This document shows, piece after piece, positions 56,306 through 63,431 of a stretch of 64,000 nucleotides of DNA. The stretch is from NCBI GenBank assembly GCA_025964795.1, contig JAOPYC010000137.1, positions 1 to 64,000 of the forward strand, given 5' to 3'. This DNA is from Marmoricola sp. (GTDB taxonomy: Bacteria > Actinomycetota > Actinomycetes > Propionibacteriales > Nocardioidaceae). The position numbers and the translations under genes are program-made. Under the pieces are notes generated by a model. That model ran no database searches. It was not told where the DNA came from and saw only the letters and a program-made list of their open reading frames with translations. Every line of letters starts with the position of its first letter. Position 1 is the stretch's first letter.

Positions 56306-57416
56306 ACCACGCACGATCCGCACGCTCGGGGTGGCGGCCCAGGACCAACCAGCGTTCTCCAGCTATGTCGAGCAGCCACCCGGTAAAGGTGAGTTCCGGG
56401 TGGACACCGTCTACACCGGGTTGTCGGCCGGCACCGAGCTCACCTTCGTCAAGGGGACCAACCCCTACCTGCACGCGTCCTGGGACGCCGAGCGTGGCGC
56501 GTTCCTCGAGGGCGAGCCGAGCCGGAGCTATCCCGTGGAGTCCATGGGCTACATGGAGGTGGGCCGAGTCACCGAGACCCGGACCGACGAGGTCTCCGTC
56601 GGGCAGCTCGTGGCCCTGGCCTACGGCCATCGCAGCGGGCACGTGATCGACCCCCGTCGCAGCGTCGCCACGGTGCTGCCCTCGGGGCTCGACCCCCTCC
56701 TCGGCATCTACGTCGCGCAGATGGGTCCGATCTGCGCCAACGGCCTGCTGCACGCCTCGGCCGAGCTCGTCGGTGCCGCTCCCGCGGACCCGGAAGCGGT
56801 GCAGCTCGGCGACGGCGTCCGGGGCCAGCGCGTCCTGGTCATCGGCGCCGGTGTGGTCGGGCTCCTGACCGGCCTGTTCGCCCGGGCCCACGGAGCCGCC
56901 GAGGTCGCGGTCGCCGACCCGGACCCGCAGCGACTGGCGGCGGCGGAGGGCCTCGGCCTGCTTCCCGTCCCCGACGACGGCTCGGGATCGGTGGAGCAGT
57001 GGAGCACCACGCGCTGGCAGTCCGGACCCGGCGACCGGGGCGCCGATCTCGTGTTCCAGTGCCGCGGCCGGGCTCCCGCCCTGGCCACGGCACTGCGGAG
57101 CCTGCGGCCACAGGGCACCGTCATCGACCTGGCCTTCTACGAGGGCGGCGCGCCGGACCTTCGGCTTGGCGAGGAGTTCCACCACAAGGGGCTCACCCTC
57201 CGGTGCGCCCAGATCAACCGCGTGCCGCGTGGGCTGGCGTCGGCCTGGGATCGGCGTCGGCTGTGCGCGGAGACGATCACGCTGCTCGCCGAGCACGGCC
57301 ACCTGGTCCGCAAGCACCTGGTCACCGACGTGGTGCCCTTCGACGAGGGCGCCACCTTCATCAGCGAGCTGGCCGAACGACGTCGCTCGTGCATCCAGGC
57401 CGTGTTCGCACTATGA
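56298..57416 (+). CDS. Zinc-type alcohol dehydrogenase-like (MDR) protein
   Basis: A 372-residue medium-chain dehydrogenase. The nucleotide-binding motif VLVIGAGVVGLLTGLFARAHGA is at about 175-196. The N-terminal catalytic half has YTGLSAGTELTFVKGTN in place of the usual zinc ligand CGTD..H, so the catalytic zinc may be missing, as in bacteriochlorophyllide and related MDR enzymes. I chose the GTG at 56298, with AGGAGG at the right distance. Together with the glycosyltransferase and Gfo/Idh genes it forms a three-gene operon, probably making or modifying a sugar-containing product; the product is unknown. Confidence 0.8.
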   Translation: MPEPRTIRTLGVAAQDQPAFSSYVEQPPGKGEFRVDTVYTGLSAGTELTFVKGTNPYLHASWDAERGAFLEGEPSRSYPVESMGYMEVGRVTETRTDEVSVGQLVALAYGHRSGHVIDPRRSVATVLPSGLDPLLGIYVAQMGPICANGLLHASAELVGAAPADPEAVQLGDGVRGQRVLVIGAGVVGLLTGLFARAHGAAEVAVADPDPQRLAAAEGLGLLPVPDDGSGSVEQWSTTRWQSGPGDRGADLVFQCRGRAPALATALRSLRPQGTVIDLAFYEGGAPDLRLGEEFHHKGLTLRCAQINRVPRGLASAWDRRRLCAETITLLAEHGHLVRKHLVTDVVPFDEGATFISELAERRRSCIQAVFAL

Positions 57417-57692
57417 CAGCGCGCGATGATGTTCGGCCCCGGAAGCCCGCAATCCGCGCGTTGGTGCGTGCCGACAGGCACCTGGGCTCCATGAACGGAA
57501 CCCGAGACGGGTAGGCCGGGTCGTTCGGCGCTCCTTGACTGTCACCCAGTGCCCGTTTTAGGTCGCTTGCGGAGCGCCCACGTGCTCGACCCTGGCAACG
57601 CGGGTGTCGGCTGCCCAGTGGCGTTGCCGTCCGCATCAACAGGGGCGCATCGGGTACGTGAGAACTGTCAATCAACAACGAGGAGGCATCTC

Positions 57693-57932
57693 ATGGCTAC
57701 TGGTGAAACTGGTTTCGACGACGTCACCTTCGACCTGATCTCGGTGCAGTACCACTCCCTGAAAGCGGGCCACGACTACGGCCAGTACGTCCGCGACGCG
57801 GAGAACGCAGGTCAGCAGGAGATCGCTGACTTCTTCAAGCAGGTGATGGACCAAGACTCCGAGCGGGCACAGAAGTGCCACGCATTCCTCGCGCAACTGG
57901 GCGGCACGGATAACACGAGCCCGCAAGACTAG
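57693..57932 (+). CDS. Small 79-aa helical protein
   Basis: A small acidic protein predicted to form a short helical bundle: FDLISVQYHSLKAGHDYGQYVRDAENAGQQEIADFFKQVMDQDSERAQKCHAFL. The spacing of His, Asp and Glu residues resembles half of a ferritin-like or DinB bundle, but no full metal site is visible. A strong AGGAGG lies six bases before the ATG. Similar small proteins appear in many actinobacteria as hypotheticals. Confidence 0.75.
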   Translation: MATGETGFDDVTFDLISVQYHSLKAGHDYGQYVRDAENAGQQEIADFFKQVMDQDSERAQKCHAFLAQLGGTDNTSPQD

Positions 57933-58034
57933 ACGCGGGCCCACGTTCTCGGTCAAGACGGGAGTCAGCGCCCCAGGCCCCGTACACGAGTCACCCCGAT
58001 CGTTTTTCAGTGCGTCTCGACAAGGAGGTTTCTC

Positions 58035-58256
58035 ATGCCGCACAAGTCATCAAACGTCAAGAACGAGAAGCAGTACGAGAAGCTCAAGGACAAAGGGATG
58101 TCGAAGGAGCGGGCCGCGAAGATCGCGAACTCCCCGGACGCCTCTAAGAACGGTGGCAAGGCCAGCGGTTCTGCAGGCGACAACTCTCAGGGCGGCACGA
58201 CTGCGCAGAAGAAGAAGGCCGGGCGCAAGGGCGGTACGGCGTCCAACAGCTCCTGA
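58035..58256 (+). CDS. DUF7218-like basic small protein
   Basis: A 73-residue, Lys- and Ser-rich protein (MPHKSSNVKNEKQYEKLKDKGMSKERAAKIANSPDASKNGG), with a disordered, repeat-like tail ending AGRKGGTASNSS. The KLKDKGMSKERAAKIAN core matches a small family often annotated as DUF7218, of unknown role. AAGGAGG lies at 58021-58027, before the ATG. Confidence 0.8.
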   Translation: MPHKSSNVKNEKQYEKLKDKGMSKERAAKIANSPDASKNGGKASGSAGDNSQGGTTAQKKKAGRKGGTASNSS

Positions 58257-58288
58257 GACTGCTCGTCTCGCAGGCGACGTGGGCGGGT

Positions 58289-58981
58289 TCAGCCTTCGAT
58301 GCCGGTGCTGGTGTGCGCTTCGCCCACCGGTTTGCTCTCCGGTGACCCGCGTTGGCGCAGGTAGATACTGAGCACGGCCATGGAACCGACAGCCAAGAAC
58401 TCCGACTGCCAGTTCTGCAACGTTCGCGACCAGAAGTCGGCGTTGCCCAGGTACGCCGTCCAGCTGATCGGGTCCTGAAGTCGTTGCAATCGGGTCTCGT
58501 TGAAGGCGGCCCGTCCCGCGATCGACTGCGCGAGCCAGGAGACGCCGAAGATCAGCCCCATGACCAGGCTCAGCGACCACGAGAACACGGTTGTGCGGAT
58601 ACCGGCTACACGCGCCCACCGCGGGGAGTCCGAGGTGGCGTGGTCACCGACCTTCTGCTCCTCATCGCTCTCCAGACCTGCCTTGTCGAGCTCCTTGGAC
58701 TCAGGTGAGCCACGCTGCAGGAGCCAGACGGTCGCGACGATGTAGAGCAGGAACTGCAGGTACTCGCTCTGCCAGTTCTCGGCCACGTCGGCCGCGAAGG
58801 TGGCAGAGGTCAGGTAGTCCGACAGCGAGAGCCGGCCAAGGCTGTCGGCGAGCTGCTCATCGTTGAACGTCTTCCACCCCGCAAGCGCTTGCCCGGCCAG
58901 AGCCAGCAGGAAGATCGCGCCGAAGAACAGCCCGAGCCCGTTGTCGCGGAGGAACCTGCGCGGGGCGAGTGTCTTTGTCAT
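58289..58981 (-). CDS. DUF6766-like membrane protein with an internal duplication
   Basis: A 230-residue protein. Helices lie near 15-35, 77-92, 130-150 and 195-212. Two halves are similar: each has a W-x-x-x-LQNWQSE-like stretch (ENWQSEYLQFLLYIV and QNWQSEFLAVGSMAV) followed by QRGSPESK. This looks like an internal gene duplication of about 110 residues. The start overlaps a 27-aa gene upstream by 4 bp. Function unknown. Confidence 0.8.
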   Translation of the reverse strand: MTKTLAPRRFLRDNGLGLFFGAIFLLALAGQALAGWKTFNDEQLADSLGRLSLSDYLTSATFAADVAENWQSEYLQFLLYIVATVWLLQRGSPESKELDKAGLESDEEQKVGDHATSDSPRWARVAGIRTTVFSWSLSLVMGLIFGVSWLAQSIAGRAAFNETRLQRLQDPISWTAYLGNADFWSRTLQNWQSEFLAVGSMAVLSIYLRQRGSPESKPVGEAHTSTGIEG

Positions 58982-59061
58982 CGGTGCACGACCCCGAGGA
59001 CGATGAAGTAGGTAAGCCCGACGGCGATGACCAGGAGGTAGGCCACGAACATGGTGCGCAT
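58978..59061 (-). CDS. 27-aa single-helix membrane protein
   Basis: ATG at 59061 (minus strand) encodes MRTMFVAYLLVIAVGLTYFI followed by VLGVVHR. It is one hydrophobic helix with a basic end. GGAGG lies about five bases before the ATG, at the very end of the lipoprotein gene. The stop overlaps the start of the DUF6766-like gene in ATGA. The position between two genes and the perfect coupling make chance unlikely. It is below the length cutoff of normal gene calling. Confidence 0.65.
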   Translation of the reverse strand: MRTMFVAYLLVIAVGLTYFIVLGVVHR

Positions 59062-59062
59062 C

Positions 59063-59473
59063 TCAGCCTCCCTGCAGGCGACAGTCGTAGGGCTTCTCGG
59101 GGACCGGCGAGCAACCCGCGGCCAGCACCTTCCACCCGCGCGGGAACCTGGTCACGAATACTGTGTCGCCCGCGAACCTCACCTGGGCCATCGTTCCGAA
59201 CGTCGCAATGTTCTCGAACGCGTCCGCGGCGGCGAGGTTCTCCTCCGCGAGGGCGACACGGCACGGCTTGCCGGCACCCTGCTCGAGCTGTGCCTTCGTG
59301 TCGGGGGCCAGCAGGGAACAGGCTTGAGCGTGGTTGCCGTCGCTCACGGCTTGAGTGAACCCCTGGGCAGTGGCCTGCGCGCCGCCCGGACCGGCTGAGC
59401 CGGCGCTGGCCCCACACCCGAGGCTCATGCTCAGCAGAACACCGAGCACTGCGAGATAGCCCCAGGCACGCAT
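59063..59473 (-). CDS. Small exported lipoprotein
   Basis: A 136-residue protein with a signal peptide and a lipobox-like SLGC, giving a lipidated cysteine at about residue 20. The mature part (about 30-136) has QGFTQAVSDGNHAQACSLLAPDTK, and a beta-rich end with FVTRFPRGWKVLAAGC, resembling the NTF2/SnoaL-like fold of many actinobacterial lipoproteins. Three further cysteines are available for disulfides. First gene of a three-gene operon with the 27-aa and DUF6766-like genes. Confidence 0.72.
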   Translation of the reverse strand: MRAWGYLAVLGVLLSMSLGCGASAGSAGPGGAQATAQGFTQAVSDGNHAQACSLLAPDTKAQLEQGAGKPCRVALAEENLAAADAFENIATFGTMAQVRFAGDTVFVTRFPRGWKVLAAGCSPVPEKPYDCRLQGG

Positions 59474-59589
59474 GGTTCATTCGTACCCCACGCCGACCTC
59501 GTTGCCGCGCACGCCGGGTGCGTGTCTGCACGTTCCCAAGGCCGCGTAGGTTCGCGTCCAGATGTGCCCAACAGGCGGGAGGCAGCCAG

Positions 59590-60522
59590 ATGATCCGGTG
59601 GGACACCGACCGACGCAGCATGAGTCTCTACACCCGGGCGTACCTGGTGGGCATGAGGTTGCGGCGAGACAAGCAGGCCTTCGAGGGGGCCGAGCACACC
59701 CTTAGCAACGCCAGAGAGCTGCAACGACACGGCGACAGCGCCCCTACCCGCCTGACCCGGCTGCTTTTCCGGGTCGAGGACGACGAGGTGGCGGGCATGG
59801 TCGTCTGGAAGGTGCGCTCCCGGTTGCGACGGCCCAAGGCGAGCGTCATCTACGTGCACGGCGGCGGCTACGTGCACCCGCTGACCGCGGACTACTGGCG
59901 CCTGGTCAGGGCTCTGACGATGTCGCCCGCCGAGGTGATCGTGCTCGCCTATCCGTTGGCACCGGACGCGACGATCGACGACGTGCTCCCTCCACTGCTC
60001 GACGTCCACACAGCGACGGTTCGAGCGCATCCGGGACGCTCCGTCGTTCTCATGGGTGACTCCGCCGGAGGCGCACTGGTCCTCACGATGGGGCGACGGC
60101 TGCGCGACCTCGAGCAACCGGCTCCGGCGGCAGTGGTGGCCTTGTCGCCGTGGCTGGACGCGACGCTCGCGGACCCCGAAGTGGGCGATCTGGAGCCGAC
60201 GGACCCGATGCTGGCCGAGTCTGGCCTACGCGCCGCGGGACGCTGGTGGGCAGGCTTCCGCAGTCCTGACGACCCGCTTGTCAGTCCGGTGAACGGCAGC
60301 CTGGAGGGCTTGCCGCGGGTGGACGTGTACATCGGCGACCGCGACATCCTGCGCCCAGCCGTCGACACGCTCGTGGAACTAGCCAAGCGGGACGGGGCGG
60401 ACCTACACGTCCACGAGGTCCCTGCGATGTTCCACGTCTGGATGACCCGCGCGATCCCCGAGGGCCGGCGAACCCGACACGAGCTCGCGCGCCTGGTGCG
60501 GCGCCGGGCTGGCTCGATCTAG
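59590..60522 (+). CDS. Alpha/beta hydrolase of the hormone-sensitive lipase family
   Basis: A 310-residue esterase-like enzyme. The oxyanion HGGGY motif is near residue 97, the nucleophile serine in MGDSAGGALV near 158, aspartate in IGDRDILRP near 257 and histidine in AMFHVWMT near 287. Such enzymes cleave short-chain esters; the substrate is unknown. I chose the ATG at 59590, which follows GGGAGG; an upstream GTG at 59518 is in frame but lies at the edge of the neighbouring promoter region. Confidence 0.87.
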   Translation: MIRWDTDRRSMSLYTRAYLVGMRLRRDKQAFEGAEHTLSNARELQRHGDSAPTRLTRLLFRVEDDEVAGMVVWKVRSRLRRPKASVIYVHGGGYVHPLTADYWRLVRALTMSPAEVIVLAYPLAPDATIDDVLPPLLDVHTATVRAHPGRSVVLMGDSAGGALVLTMGRRLRDLEQPAPAAVVALSPWLDATLADPEVGDLEPTDPMLAESGLRAAGRWWAGFRSPDDPLVSPVNGSLEGLPRVDVYIGDRDILRPAVDTLVELAKRDGADLHVHEVPAMFHVWMTRAIPEGRRTRHELARLVRRRAGSI

Positions 60523-60836
60523 GCGCGAACCGGACGTCGAACTGGCCGGCAACGGAACCTACCGCTGCGGCGTACGAAGGCGTTGGGCTCCCGAACTCGG
60601 CGACACCACTGGTCGCTAAGCACCGTATCGCCGGCTGCCGGCGGGAGCAGGACTCGCCACCGGCGTATCGCAGGTGACTGGTGGCCGTCCAACCGGGCTG
60701 CGTGAGCCGAAGCGGTTGAACGACCACCCGGGTCACGAGGCTCGAATAAGAGCCGGCCACATGAGCCACCACTTGCTGGGCCCCGTCGAGTCGGTGCGCG
60801 CTATCCGTGACCTCGCGGAGATCATCAACCGACTAG
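60523..60836. other. Interval before the decayed relaxase
   Basis: Little is recognisable in these 314 bp. A short open frame around 60761-60836 reads MSHHLLGPVESVRAIRDLA and breaks off into the relaxase region in another frame, so it may be the start of a lost gene fused by a deletion. No full gene, RNA or repeat is evident. Confidence 0.4.
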
Positions 60837-63431
60837 GTGCAGGTGCCCGTGACCCAGATCGAGGCAGCGGTGGTGCGGCACTACACCTCGCGGGCGGGTG
60901 ACCCGCACCGTCACTTGCACCTCCAGATCAACGCCCGCGTCCTGGCCGAAGGTGCTTGGCGGGGGCTGCACTCGGTCGGGATGCGTGACAGCCTCGCCGC
61001 GATCAACGGCATCGGCCACGCGGCGGTCGCCACCGACCCCGAGTTCCGGTCGGTGCTGACAGCGCACGGATTCACCCTCGACCCGGCCACCGGCGAGCTG
61101 ACCAACCTGGCGCCCTACGTCGGCAGGTTCAGCGCCCGCACTGCGCAGATCGGCCGCAACCTCGACCGCTACGAAGCCGAATGGCGCCACGCGAACCCCG
61201 GCGCCGAACCCGGCCCCGGGCTGCGACAGGCGTGGGACCGCCGGGCCTGGGCCCAGTCACGCCCGGACCAGGTCGTCCCCACCGACGGCGCCGCCTTGGT
61301 CGTACGGTGGAACGAGGAGTTGCACGACCTGGGCTACACCGACCCGCCACAGGTCGGACTCCCGATCGTGGCCGGCACCCCCAGGGTCGGGGGCATCGAT
61401 CGTGACCAGGTGGTCGAGGTTGTCCTGTCACGGCTCGAGGCACGGCGGTCGGCGTGGAACGCCGCCGACATCCGTGGCGAGGTCGAGCAGCGGATCGCCG
61501 GCATCGGTCTGGTTGCCGATGCCACGATCCGGGTCGAGCTTGCCGAAGACCTCACCGCCCGAACCCTGCCAGCCTGTCAGCCGCTCCTCCCCCGCACCGA
61601 TGTGCCCGAACACATCCGTGCCCTGACCTCCCCCGAGGTGCTGGCCGTGGAGGCGGACCTCGTTGGCCGACTCATCGGTCGCGCCGAGCAGCCCGCGCAC
61701 GTCGCGGCGTTCGCCGACCCTCATGCGGACCCCCCACCCGAAGAAGGCCCCGACGCTGGGCTCGAGGGGTTGGATGTCGCGCAGCGAGCGGCCGTCGCCT
61801 CGCTCGCCGGAAGCGCGCCGCTGTTGGTGGTCGAGGGGGCTGCGGGGGCGGGCAAGACGAAGACACTCTCCGCAACCGGGGCGCTGCTCGCGCAGCGCGG
61901 CCACCGGATGGTGGTGGTGACGCCAACGTTGAAGGCAGCGAAGGTGGCCGGCCTTGAGACAGGCACGATGGCGTTCTCCGCGGCGTGGCTGGCCCACCAG
62001 CACGGCTTCCGCTGGGACGACGACGGTCACTGGACCCGCGAGGCCGCGACCCCAGTCGCGGACGCCGCGCTGCAACGCGGTGGCCTGCGGCTCATCGACG
62101 AGGCCGGAATGCTCGACCAGGACACCGCACGCGCCATCCTCACCATCGCCGATGAGACGGGCGCCCGGATCGCCCTGGTGGGTGACCCGCACCAGCTCCC
62201 CGCCGTCGGCCGCGGCGGCGTCCTCGACCTCGCCGCCCGCTGGGCCAGACCCGAGACAATGCTGTCCCTCGACGTCGTACACCGATTCACCGACCCCAAG
62301 TACGCAGAACTCAGCCTCGCGATGCGTACGGGGGTACGGGACGGCGAGGTCTTCGACGCCCTGGTTGCCCCGTACCAGGTACAGCTCTACCCCACAGAGG
62401 CCGAGCGCACCCAGGCGCTGGCCGAGGTCGCTGCTCGAAGCAGGCTGGCCGGCGAGACCGGTGTGCTGGTCAGGCAGACACCCGCGAACAGGTGGCGGCA
62501 CAGAACGGCGCGATCCGGGACCGACTCGTCGCCGCCGGTGTCGTCGATGACCGTCGTGGAGTCGTCACCGGTGCGGGCGAGCGCCTCGGCGTCGGGGACC
62601 GGGTGATGACCCGACGCAACGACCGTGACCCAACGGTCGCCAACCGCGACACCTGGACCATCACCGGCATCGGCTCCGACGGCACCCTGACCGTCCACGG
62701 CGACTCACGCGCCGGTTCCCGTTCCCTGCCGGCGGCGTACTCGCACGAGCACGTGGAGCTCGACTACTCCACCACTGTCCACGGCGCCCAGGGAGAGACC
62801 ACCCACACTGGACACCTCCTACTGGGTGAGAACACCAGTGCCGCCGCGGCGTACGTCGCAATGACCCGCGGCCGCGAGGACAACGCCGCCCACCTGGTCG
62901 CCGAGAATCTCGACGACGCCCGGCAACAGTGGATCGAGACCTTCGGTCGCGACCGCGCCGACCTGGGACCCGGACACGCCGCGCGACGTGCAGCCGAGGA
63001 CCTCGAAAGGTACGCCCCACACCGTCCCCTCGAGCCCGCACTGGCCGACCTGCGCGCCGCCTGGACGACCGAACAAGACCTACGAGGTGCCCTGGCCCCG
63101 CTGCGAGAGCCGCGACGACCGCATGGCGGTCTACGGCGAACCTCCCGCGGCCTGGGTCGCCGCCAACCGCGCCGACCAAGACAGCCTTCGTGACCAGCTC
63201 ACCACCGCCACCGACCAGGTGCGCACCCGCCTCGCGGAGCCCGCCATCCGGTCCCTGCCACCAGGTCGCCTCGAGCGAGAACACGACCACTGGCTCCAGG
63301 ACCGTCGCCACGAGCAGCAGGAAGCCCAGGCCGCGGCGAAGCGCCTCGCCCGTTCCCAGCGCACGGCCCGCCACCAAGCGCCCTACCGCTCACCCGGCAC
63401 ACCCGACCGAGGCAGAGGCATCAGCCGATAA
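60837..63431 (+). pseudogene. Decayed MobF-type relaxase/helicase (TraA/TrwC-like)
   Basis: Fragments in three consecutive frames together resemble a conjugative relaxase. The first (60837-62490) starts in the metal-binding DPHRHLHLQINARV motif, so the N-terminal catalytic tyrosine region of about 80-150 residues is missing. It continues with helicase motifs EGAAGAGKTKTL, RLIDEAGML and VGDPHQLPAVGRGG. A frameshift near 62470-62490 leads to GAIRDRLVAAGVVDDRR, YSTTVHGAQGETTHTG and YVAMTRGRE. A second shift near 63105-63115 leads to CESRDDRMAVYGEPPAAWVAANRADQ and the basic tail ending at 63431. It is clearly inactive and marks an old integrative conjugative element. Confidence 0.87.

Follow-up and report, generated by a model that had tools for sequence, protein, structure and literature searches.

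A 27-residue single-helix protein encoded almost always beside one branch of the DUF6766 membrane proteins in soil actinobacteria

Does a frame of 27 codons lying between a lipoprotein-like gene and a DUF6766 membrane protein gene encode a protein and, if so, to which of its neighbours does this protein belong? The locus is part of a stretch of 64,000 nucleotides of Marmoricola sp. (GenBank assembly GCA_025964795.1, contig JAOPYC010000137.1, positions 1 to 64,000), hereafter the window. Three genes follow one another on its minus strand: the lipoprotein-like gene (59063..59473, 136 aa, recognised by its ORF and translation, with an NTF2-like domain predicted by modelling), the gene of a 27-aa single-helix membrane protein (58978..59061, supported by its ORF, its conservation and profile searches) and the DUF6766 membrane protein gene (58289..58981, 230 aa, with a PF20554 match and a tandem duplication). 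An earlier note on this DNA had described a lipoprotein, a 27-aa gene and a duplicated DUF6766 gene in a row, with the small gene in the middle, and this arrangement is confirmed here. The small protein reads MRTMFVAYLLVIAVGLTYFIVLGVVHR (ORF 59061-58978, minus strand). Its Shine-Dalgarno sequence GGGAGG (59067..59072, minus strand) lies within the 3' end of the lipoprotein gene, 5 nt from the ATG, and is kept in relatives, and its stop codon overlaps the DUF6766 start in the sequence ATGA. Neither intrinsic terminators nor sigma-70 promoters were found in a scan of 58000-59800, and an Rfam scan of 57000-61000 gave no match at the gathering threshold.

Several features were observed on the plus strand around the trio. 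A 73-aa DUF7218 gene (58035-58256, E 1.6e-12), encoding a small, charged protein, is convergent with the trio, and an alpha/beta hydrolase gene (59590-60522, Abhydrolase_3, E 1.6e-31) is divergent from it. A 79-aa stretch near the DUF6766 gene has a weak ferritin-like match (57693-57932, E 0.005), and ferritin-like genes are also found near DUF6766 on one Agrobacterium and one Microvirga plasmid. At 60837-62606, a TrwC relaxase match that covers positions 133-285 of the 286 in the model, and so lacks its N-terminal part, is followed by an AAA_30 helicase region; the trio adjoins what looks like a remnant of a mobile element.

The small frame was examined in the 80 loci that are the best of 542 confirmed DUF6766 relatives in a scan of named genomes, a set biased to close relatives. 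It is present in 79 of them (78 by script and L051 by eye), the exception being L085, where another sequence lies directly upstream of DUF6766. The lipoprotein gene is also present in 79 of these 80 loci, its frame being interrupted in L057 and partly masked in L047. Among the 91 small-gene loci found by script, the gene has exactly 27 codons in 79, starts with ATG in 60 and with GTG in 31, and is preceded by a Shine-Dalgarno match of at least 5 nt in 68, compared with 3 and 14 of 91 at two control offsets. The earlier note had made its reading depend on the conservation of the frame and of its ribosome site in relatives, and both held. In the protein, R2, G15 and L16 are kept in at least 90% of 89 aligned rows, with GGC, GGG, GGA and GGT all used at G15. 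In 80 close pairs, which share rows, synonymous changes account for 48.5% of the differing codons against 22.5% under a random-placement null, and the differences by codon position number 302, 251 and 613. The tests on all rows discriminate poorly, since pN/pS over 3003 pairs is 0.84 in the small frame against 0.91 in frame +1 and third positions are no more variable than first (mean column entropy by codon position 1.19, 0.93 and 1.19). A periodicity peak at 100 degrees, which is not significant (357 of 5000 permutations were as high), is kept as a hint of a conserved face on the helix. The window frame matches the family profile with E 2.2e-12, a value that is not independent because this frame is a row of that profile. 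Taken together, these data confirm that the 27-codon ORF is a conserved gene, beyond chance.

The small-family profile was searched in a class sample (296 genomes drawn over the class and not chosen by neighbourhood) and in a phylum sample (396 genomes drawn over the phylum), some genomes being common to both; small-profile counts are given at E<=0.001 unless stated. In the class sample, 29 of the 30 matching places adjoin a full-length DUF6766 gene and the remaining one is in the genome G037. The profile includes seven of the 30 among its rows; the 23 others comprise 22 that adjoin DUF6766 and the one in G037. At E<=0.01, the places number 36, with 32 adjoining DUF6766. Near-full-length DUF6766 itself was found at 40 places in 39 genomes of this sample, and the eight full-length places with no adjoining small gene comprise seven of another DUF6766 clade and the one of G037. 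In the phylum sample, the profile matches 12 genomes at E<=0.01; ten of these matches (E<=6e-6) adjoin DUF6766 and two weak ones do not, and since the ten are profile rows they show only that the profile finds nothing strong elsewhere. Single-piece, near-full-length DUF6766 is present in 12 genomes of the phylum sample, where those without the small gene (G355 and G099) are both of the other clade. No small gene was found at E<=0.001 in a genome lacking DUF6766 in either sample. The weak places away from DUF6766 (E 0.005-0.008; G560, G592 and G635 in the class sample, G070 and G082 in the phylum sample) are about as many as expected by chance; score alone does not separate such weak places, because G476, G524 and G563 in the class sample are equally weak and adjoin DUF6766.

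The genome G037 has the lipoprotein and small genes together near 672 kb, with no DUF6766 after them, and its only DUF6766 match, which belongs to the small-gene clade, lies near 3252 kb on the same 4.4-Mb contig with neither of the two genes beside it. All three genes are therefore present and unlinked, and the trio goes together in this genome despite the split operon. The lipoprotein is the less constant part of the trio, and the pair of small gene and DUF6766 is tighter than the trio: a lipoprotein is also present at 27 of the 32 adjacent pairs of the class sample (E<=0.01), and in six genomes (G282, G314, G395, G453, G602 and G626) the small gene and DUF6766 have no lipoprotein match beside them; for G282, G314 and G395 this includes a reading of the upstream frames. 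The occurrence is patchy, DUF6766 being found in one of the 23 genomes of the window's genus (G021, with all three genes). The single-helix protein of soil actinobacteria thus occurs almost always with one branch of DUF6766, and usually with the lipoprotein. The search across other genomes with DUF6766, which had been proposed from the sequence, bears out this association. The proposal that such proteins regulate or stabilise a larger membrane partner stands for the tight association (29 of 30 places), and what the data give for regulation, stabilisation or contact with DUF6766 is association, so that the earlier interpretation as a whole is partly supported. The pair being closer than the trio, the confinement to one DUF6766 clade and the stress-type promoter box had gone unnoticed in the earlier note.

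The small gene is a mark of one DUF6766 clade. In a tree of 136 DUF6766 sequences, with the root drawn at the midpoint, a split supported at 100/100 separates 120 rows, of which 118 have the small gene, from 16 rows, none of which has it. Members of at least 15 named actinobacterial families carry the small gene in this tree, where the window row clusters with Nocardioidaceae. The carriers include L096, whose frame was found by script although it is not listed by the profile, and the two rows of the small-gene clade that lack the gene are L002, which is the DUF6766 of G037, and L085. The L085 assembly, which has 12.4 Mb and may be mixed, gave no small-profile match better than E 0.016 and contains a second, unclassed DUF6766. 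The clade without the small gene includes alphaproteobacterial and Deinococcus plasmid genes (L120, L121, L122 and L125) and actinobacterial ones, and the split sets the small-gene clade apart from the DUF6766 genes that stand alone in Alphaproteobacteria, in Deinococcus and in some actinobacteria.

Loci of this second clade, with neither helix nor lipoprotein, include L006, L018, L022, L191 and L217 and the plasmid loci L120-L123 and L125, and the clade is common to actinobacteria, Alphaproteobacteria and Deinococcus. Several actinobacterial genomes (L010, L011, L032 and L033) repeatedly show short partial DUF6766 matches, covering positions 5-73 or 12-73, which are perhaps a half-length relative of one repeat.

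The window DUF6766 protein is a full member of PF20554 (E 3.2e-97; 324.6 bits, where the curated cut-off is 27 bits; the match spans positions 2-220 of 221). It had rightly been called duplicated, since its two halves align over 86 aa with 38% identity (E 4e-17), and NWQSE and RGSPESK occur in each of them. In the AlphaFold2 model (pLDDT 90, pTM 0.82), helices 7-45, 53-57 and 60-86, then 136-166, 174-178 and 181-207, form one three-helix unit twice. In an alignment of 78 rows, of which five belong to the other clade, E68, N69, W70, S72, E73 and Q189-E194 do not vary; Q71 does, NWESE being found in some other-clade rows. A topology with cytoplasmic ends is suggested by the positive charge of the N-terminus and by the two RGSPESK stretches. 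Foldseek gave no match to the model at E<=0.001 in PDB or BFVD, and VIA-align returned middling rows (best Z 5.8) that may correspond to a common arrangement. The idea of a new fold was set aside, as the fold-search nulls and the middling rows give no evidence for it. In the open-licence literature of PubMed Central, no paper among 5.39 million was found with the term DUF6766, and none was found on a small membrane protein with DUF4878 or on smORF/DUF/Nocardioides.

The lipobox of the window lipoprotein, S-L-G-C, is not canonical at -3. Its candidate lipobox cysteine is invariant in 81 aligned relatives, as are four others (the five being C20, C52, C71, C121 and C131), and these four suggest that the protein carries two disulfides. 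The model of the lipoprotein (pLDDT 88.6, pTM 0.78), made of helices followed by five strands, resembles NTF2-like folds: the VIA-align list (best Z 9.3, rmsd 4.0, 97 residues aligned) holds mostly ketosteroid-isomerase-like, CaMKII-hub and PBP5 N-terminal chains. Foldseek gave no match to it at E<=0.001, and the lipoprotein profile found nothing at E<=1 among sequences of solved structures. By the resemblance of its model and by a weak match to PF12870, the window lipoprotein comes near DUF4878/NTF2-like lipoproteins, but it stays below the DUF4878 cut-off (16.2 bits, E 0.013, for 24.1 bits required) and differs by its four further invariant cysteines; DUF4878 reaches E<=0.01 in 3 of 81 members. 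When ten candidates per genome were scored in 396 genomes, the lipoprotein profile gave matches at E<=0.001 in at least 33. Among the matches listed, seven are strong (E<=1e-30), all in genomes with the small gene and DUF6766, and the remaining ones listed (E 1e-11 and weaker) are looser relatives elsewhere.

The window small protein matches no Pfam or NCBIfam model at E<=1, and no model in the libraries searched is dedicated to its family. The single match of the small protein among sequences of solved structures (E 0.27) was judged to be due to chance. Small accessory helices such as KdpF and YohP are an already known kind. MetS/MaAIMP_sms is a short single-helix protein encoded beside a larger membrane protein, being the small subunit of NSS amino-acid importers. 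KdpF, according to the part of the source consulted, is a 30-aa membrane peptide co-transcribed with the KdpABC potassium transporter genes and supposed to stabilise the complex (PMC3618439). Like the small protein, KdpF is a membrane peptide of about 30 aa encoded with a larger membrane partner, but this partner is a P-type pump for KdpF and DUF6766 for the small protein. No KdpF model appears in the Pfam and NCBIfam results of the 89 members at E<=1. The consulted part of another source describes further small accessory membrane helices in bacteria (PMC10903887).

Several hypotheses other than a helix dedicated to DUF6766 were weighed. The main rival, which we regard as unlikely, is that the small protein would have the lipoprotein as its main partner and serve it, for example, as an anchor or retention helix, with DUF6766 associated through the operon only. 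It owes this rank to G037, where the lipoprotein and small genes stay together and DUF6766 is apart, but six genomes keep the small gene and DUF6766 with no adjoining lipoprotein match and no genome has the small gene without DUF6766 at E<=0.001. We hold it more doubtful still that the small ORF is a translational coupling device, transferring ribosomes from the lipoprotein gene to DUF6766, with the peptide secondary. In 83 of the 84 cases measured, the small gene starts no more than 6 nt from the lipoprotein stop or overlaps it, and in 56 of 91 loci its own stop shares 4 nt with the start of DUF6766, a count in which the nearest start was picked, favouring short gaps. However, 3 to 55 nt separate the small gene from DUF6766 in 31 of 91 loci, and it persists without DUF6766 downstream in G037 and without the lipoprotein upstream in the six genomes. 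Coupling alone is insufficient, because it leaves unexplained the split genome and the conservation of amino acids while codons drift, as at G15.

The 27-aa YohP and similar small membrane proteins of bacteria have been linked to stress responses, in the part of the source consulted (PMC7549839). The size, single helix and stress-type promoter box of the present protein would suit a free-standing membrane peptide of this kind, either type I toxin-like or of general stress, found here by chance; this is very unlikely, since occurrences at E<=0.001 are limited to genomes with DUF6766 and the five weaker places are close to the chance number. A divergent MetS-like small subunit, which would make DUF6766 a transporter, appears more improbable again. 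The NCBIfam model MetS_like_NSS (NF033493) matches 6 of 89 members (best 4.7e-5), the Pfam model MaAIMP_sms (PF16951) matches 9 of 89 (best 0.0029), and hhalign gives a probability of 49% between MetS and the small family, yet short hydrophobic profiles match easily, the window protein matches neither model at E<=1, and a search of the genome of the window with the MetS model gives no match at E<=0.001. The near-invariant W before GG of MetS is not a conserved column in the small family, and the adjoining membrane gene in the window and its relatives is DUF6766 and not an NSS-family transporter; the weak similarity elsewhere in the family is not membership. Finally, short ORFs are common in GC-rich DNA and frame +2 of the small-gene stretch is open in all 78 rows tested, but a chance frame in an intergenic gap is contradicted by the frame conservation and the genome-wide association with DUF6766, and it retains practically no credit.

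We therefore favour, with a probability of roughly 0.6, the reading that a stress-regulated, clade-specific DUF6766 complex has the 27-aa protein as its dedicated subunit or stabiliser; the contact with DUF6766, the stabilising role, the topology, the stress induction and the activity of the complex are what we infer. The protein would be a single-pass subunit, acting as stabiliser or assembly factor, of a membrane complex confined to one DUF6766 clade. DUF6766 would be pseudo-symmetric, each of its two repeats consisting of one long and one short helix followed by another membrane helix. The third component, lying outside and less constant, would be the NTF2-like lipoprotein. The three genes would be translationally coupled, and the operon would be switched on by a general stress sigma factor of the SigB/SigF type, the small protein probably being part of a stress-induced membrane complex. 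A dedicated helix accounts for three observations: the small gene pairs more tightly with DUF6766, is restricted to one clade and co-occurs with DUF6766 even where the two are unlinked. Against it stand L085, a small-gene-clade DUF6766 with no small gene nearby, G037, where the small gene stays with the lipoprotein and not with DUF6766, and the other DUF6766 clade, which manages without the small gene. The small gene would give DUF6766 a partner and a likely regulatory setting. Natural experiments on the role of a one-helix subunit are provided by the two clades, of which one carries the helix and the other does not, by G037 with its unlinked genes and by the genomes lacking the lipoprotein.

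A candidate SigB-type -10 box, GGGTAC (59483..59488, minus strand), has its first base 15 nt before the lipoprotein ATG (59473), and GGGTA/GGG[TA]A is enriched in relatives. The 100 nt preceding the lipoprotein gene contain GGGTA in 31 of 82 cases, compared with 55 of 621 for neighbouring genes and 5.1 +- 2.3 expected from first-order resampling of the sequence; when GNNT is also required 14-16 nt ahead of the box, the counts become 17 of 82, 26 of 621 and 0.8 +- 0.8, respectively. No exact significance is claimed for these counts, since the loci are related and not phylogenetically independent, start codons were chosen heuristically and the neighbouring genes come from a crude gene caller. 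In 18 cases GGG[TA]A lies at -15 from the lipoprotein start, and the transcript is predicted to be leaderless or nearly so. The box agrees with the SigB-type consensus of Streptomyces coelicolor, GTTT/GNNT, spacer, then GGGTAC/G or GGG[AT]A, as given in the parts of the sources consulted (PMC8346170, PMC3184153). A strict SigB pattern gave four matches, all in Glycomyces, and ECF, SigR, SigD and HrdB patterns showed no enrichment. In the window, no -35 GNNT was found by eye at the matching spacing.

Around 89 loci, 21 neighbour clusters recur, each in 4 to 10 loci. The ten run through Pfam gave GAF-ANTAR, alcohol dehydrogenase, Haem_oxygenas_2, molybdopterin oxidoreductase, GCS2, hemerythrin, FMN reductase, sigma-70 and Usp, the tenth having no Pfam match; among the eleven others, some look unrelated to stress. 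The recurrence of GAF-ANTAR, hemerythrin, Usp, sigma-70 and GCS2 genes speaks in favour of the stress-regulated complex. Stand-alone DUF6766 lies near ferritin-like, sigma-70, Hsp20 or treZ genes at 2 of 4 non-actinobacterial plasmid loci. That stress-type neighbours are found at two of these four loci only, and that the window promoter has no -35 match, count against stress regulation. A bolder and rather doubtful reading makes the trio a new stress-induced envelope device of a disulfide-bearing NTF2-like lipoprotein, a coupling helix and a helix-gated DUF6766. The lipoprotein would sense or bind something outside and be coupled by the 27-aa helix to the pseudo-twofold DUF6766, which has NWQSE twice and would act as a channel, carrier or sensor gated through this helix.

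Such small genes had been said to be easily missed, and six Streptomyces plasmid records (L118, L119 and L224-L227) in which the small gene is present indeed list no feature for it, evidence of lower grade because the gene table is known to be incomplete. Three of the six have one common DUF6766 protein accession, with the lipoprotein unlisted as well. A conserved 27-codon gene skipped in annotated records is easy to overlook. On the Streptomyces plasmids L224 and L225, a hemerythrin gene (1577-2581) directly precedes the lipoprotein-small-DUF6766 set, and in L225 it overlaps the lipoprotein gene by one base as annotated.
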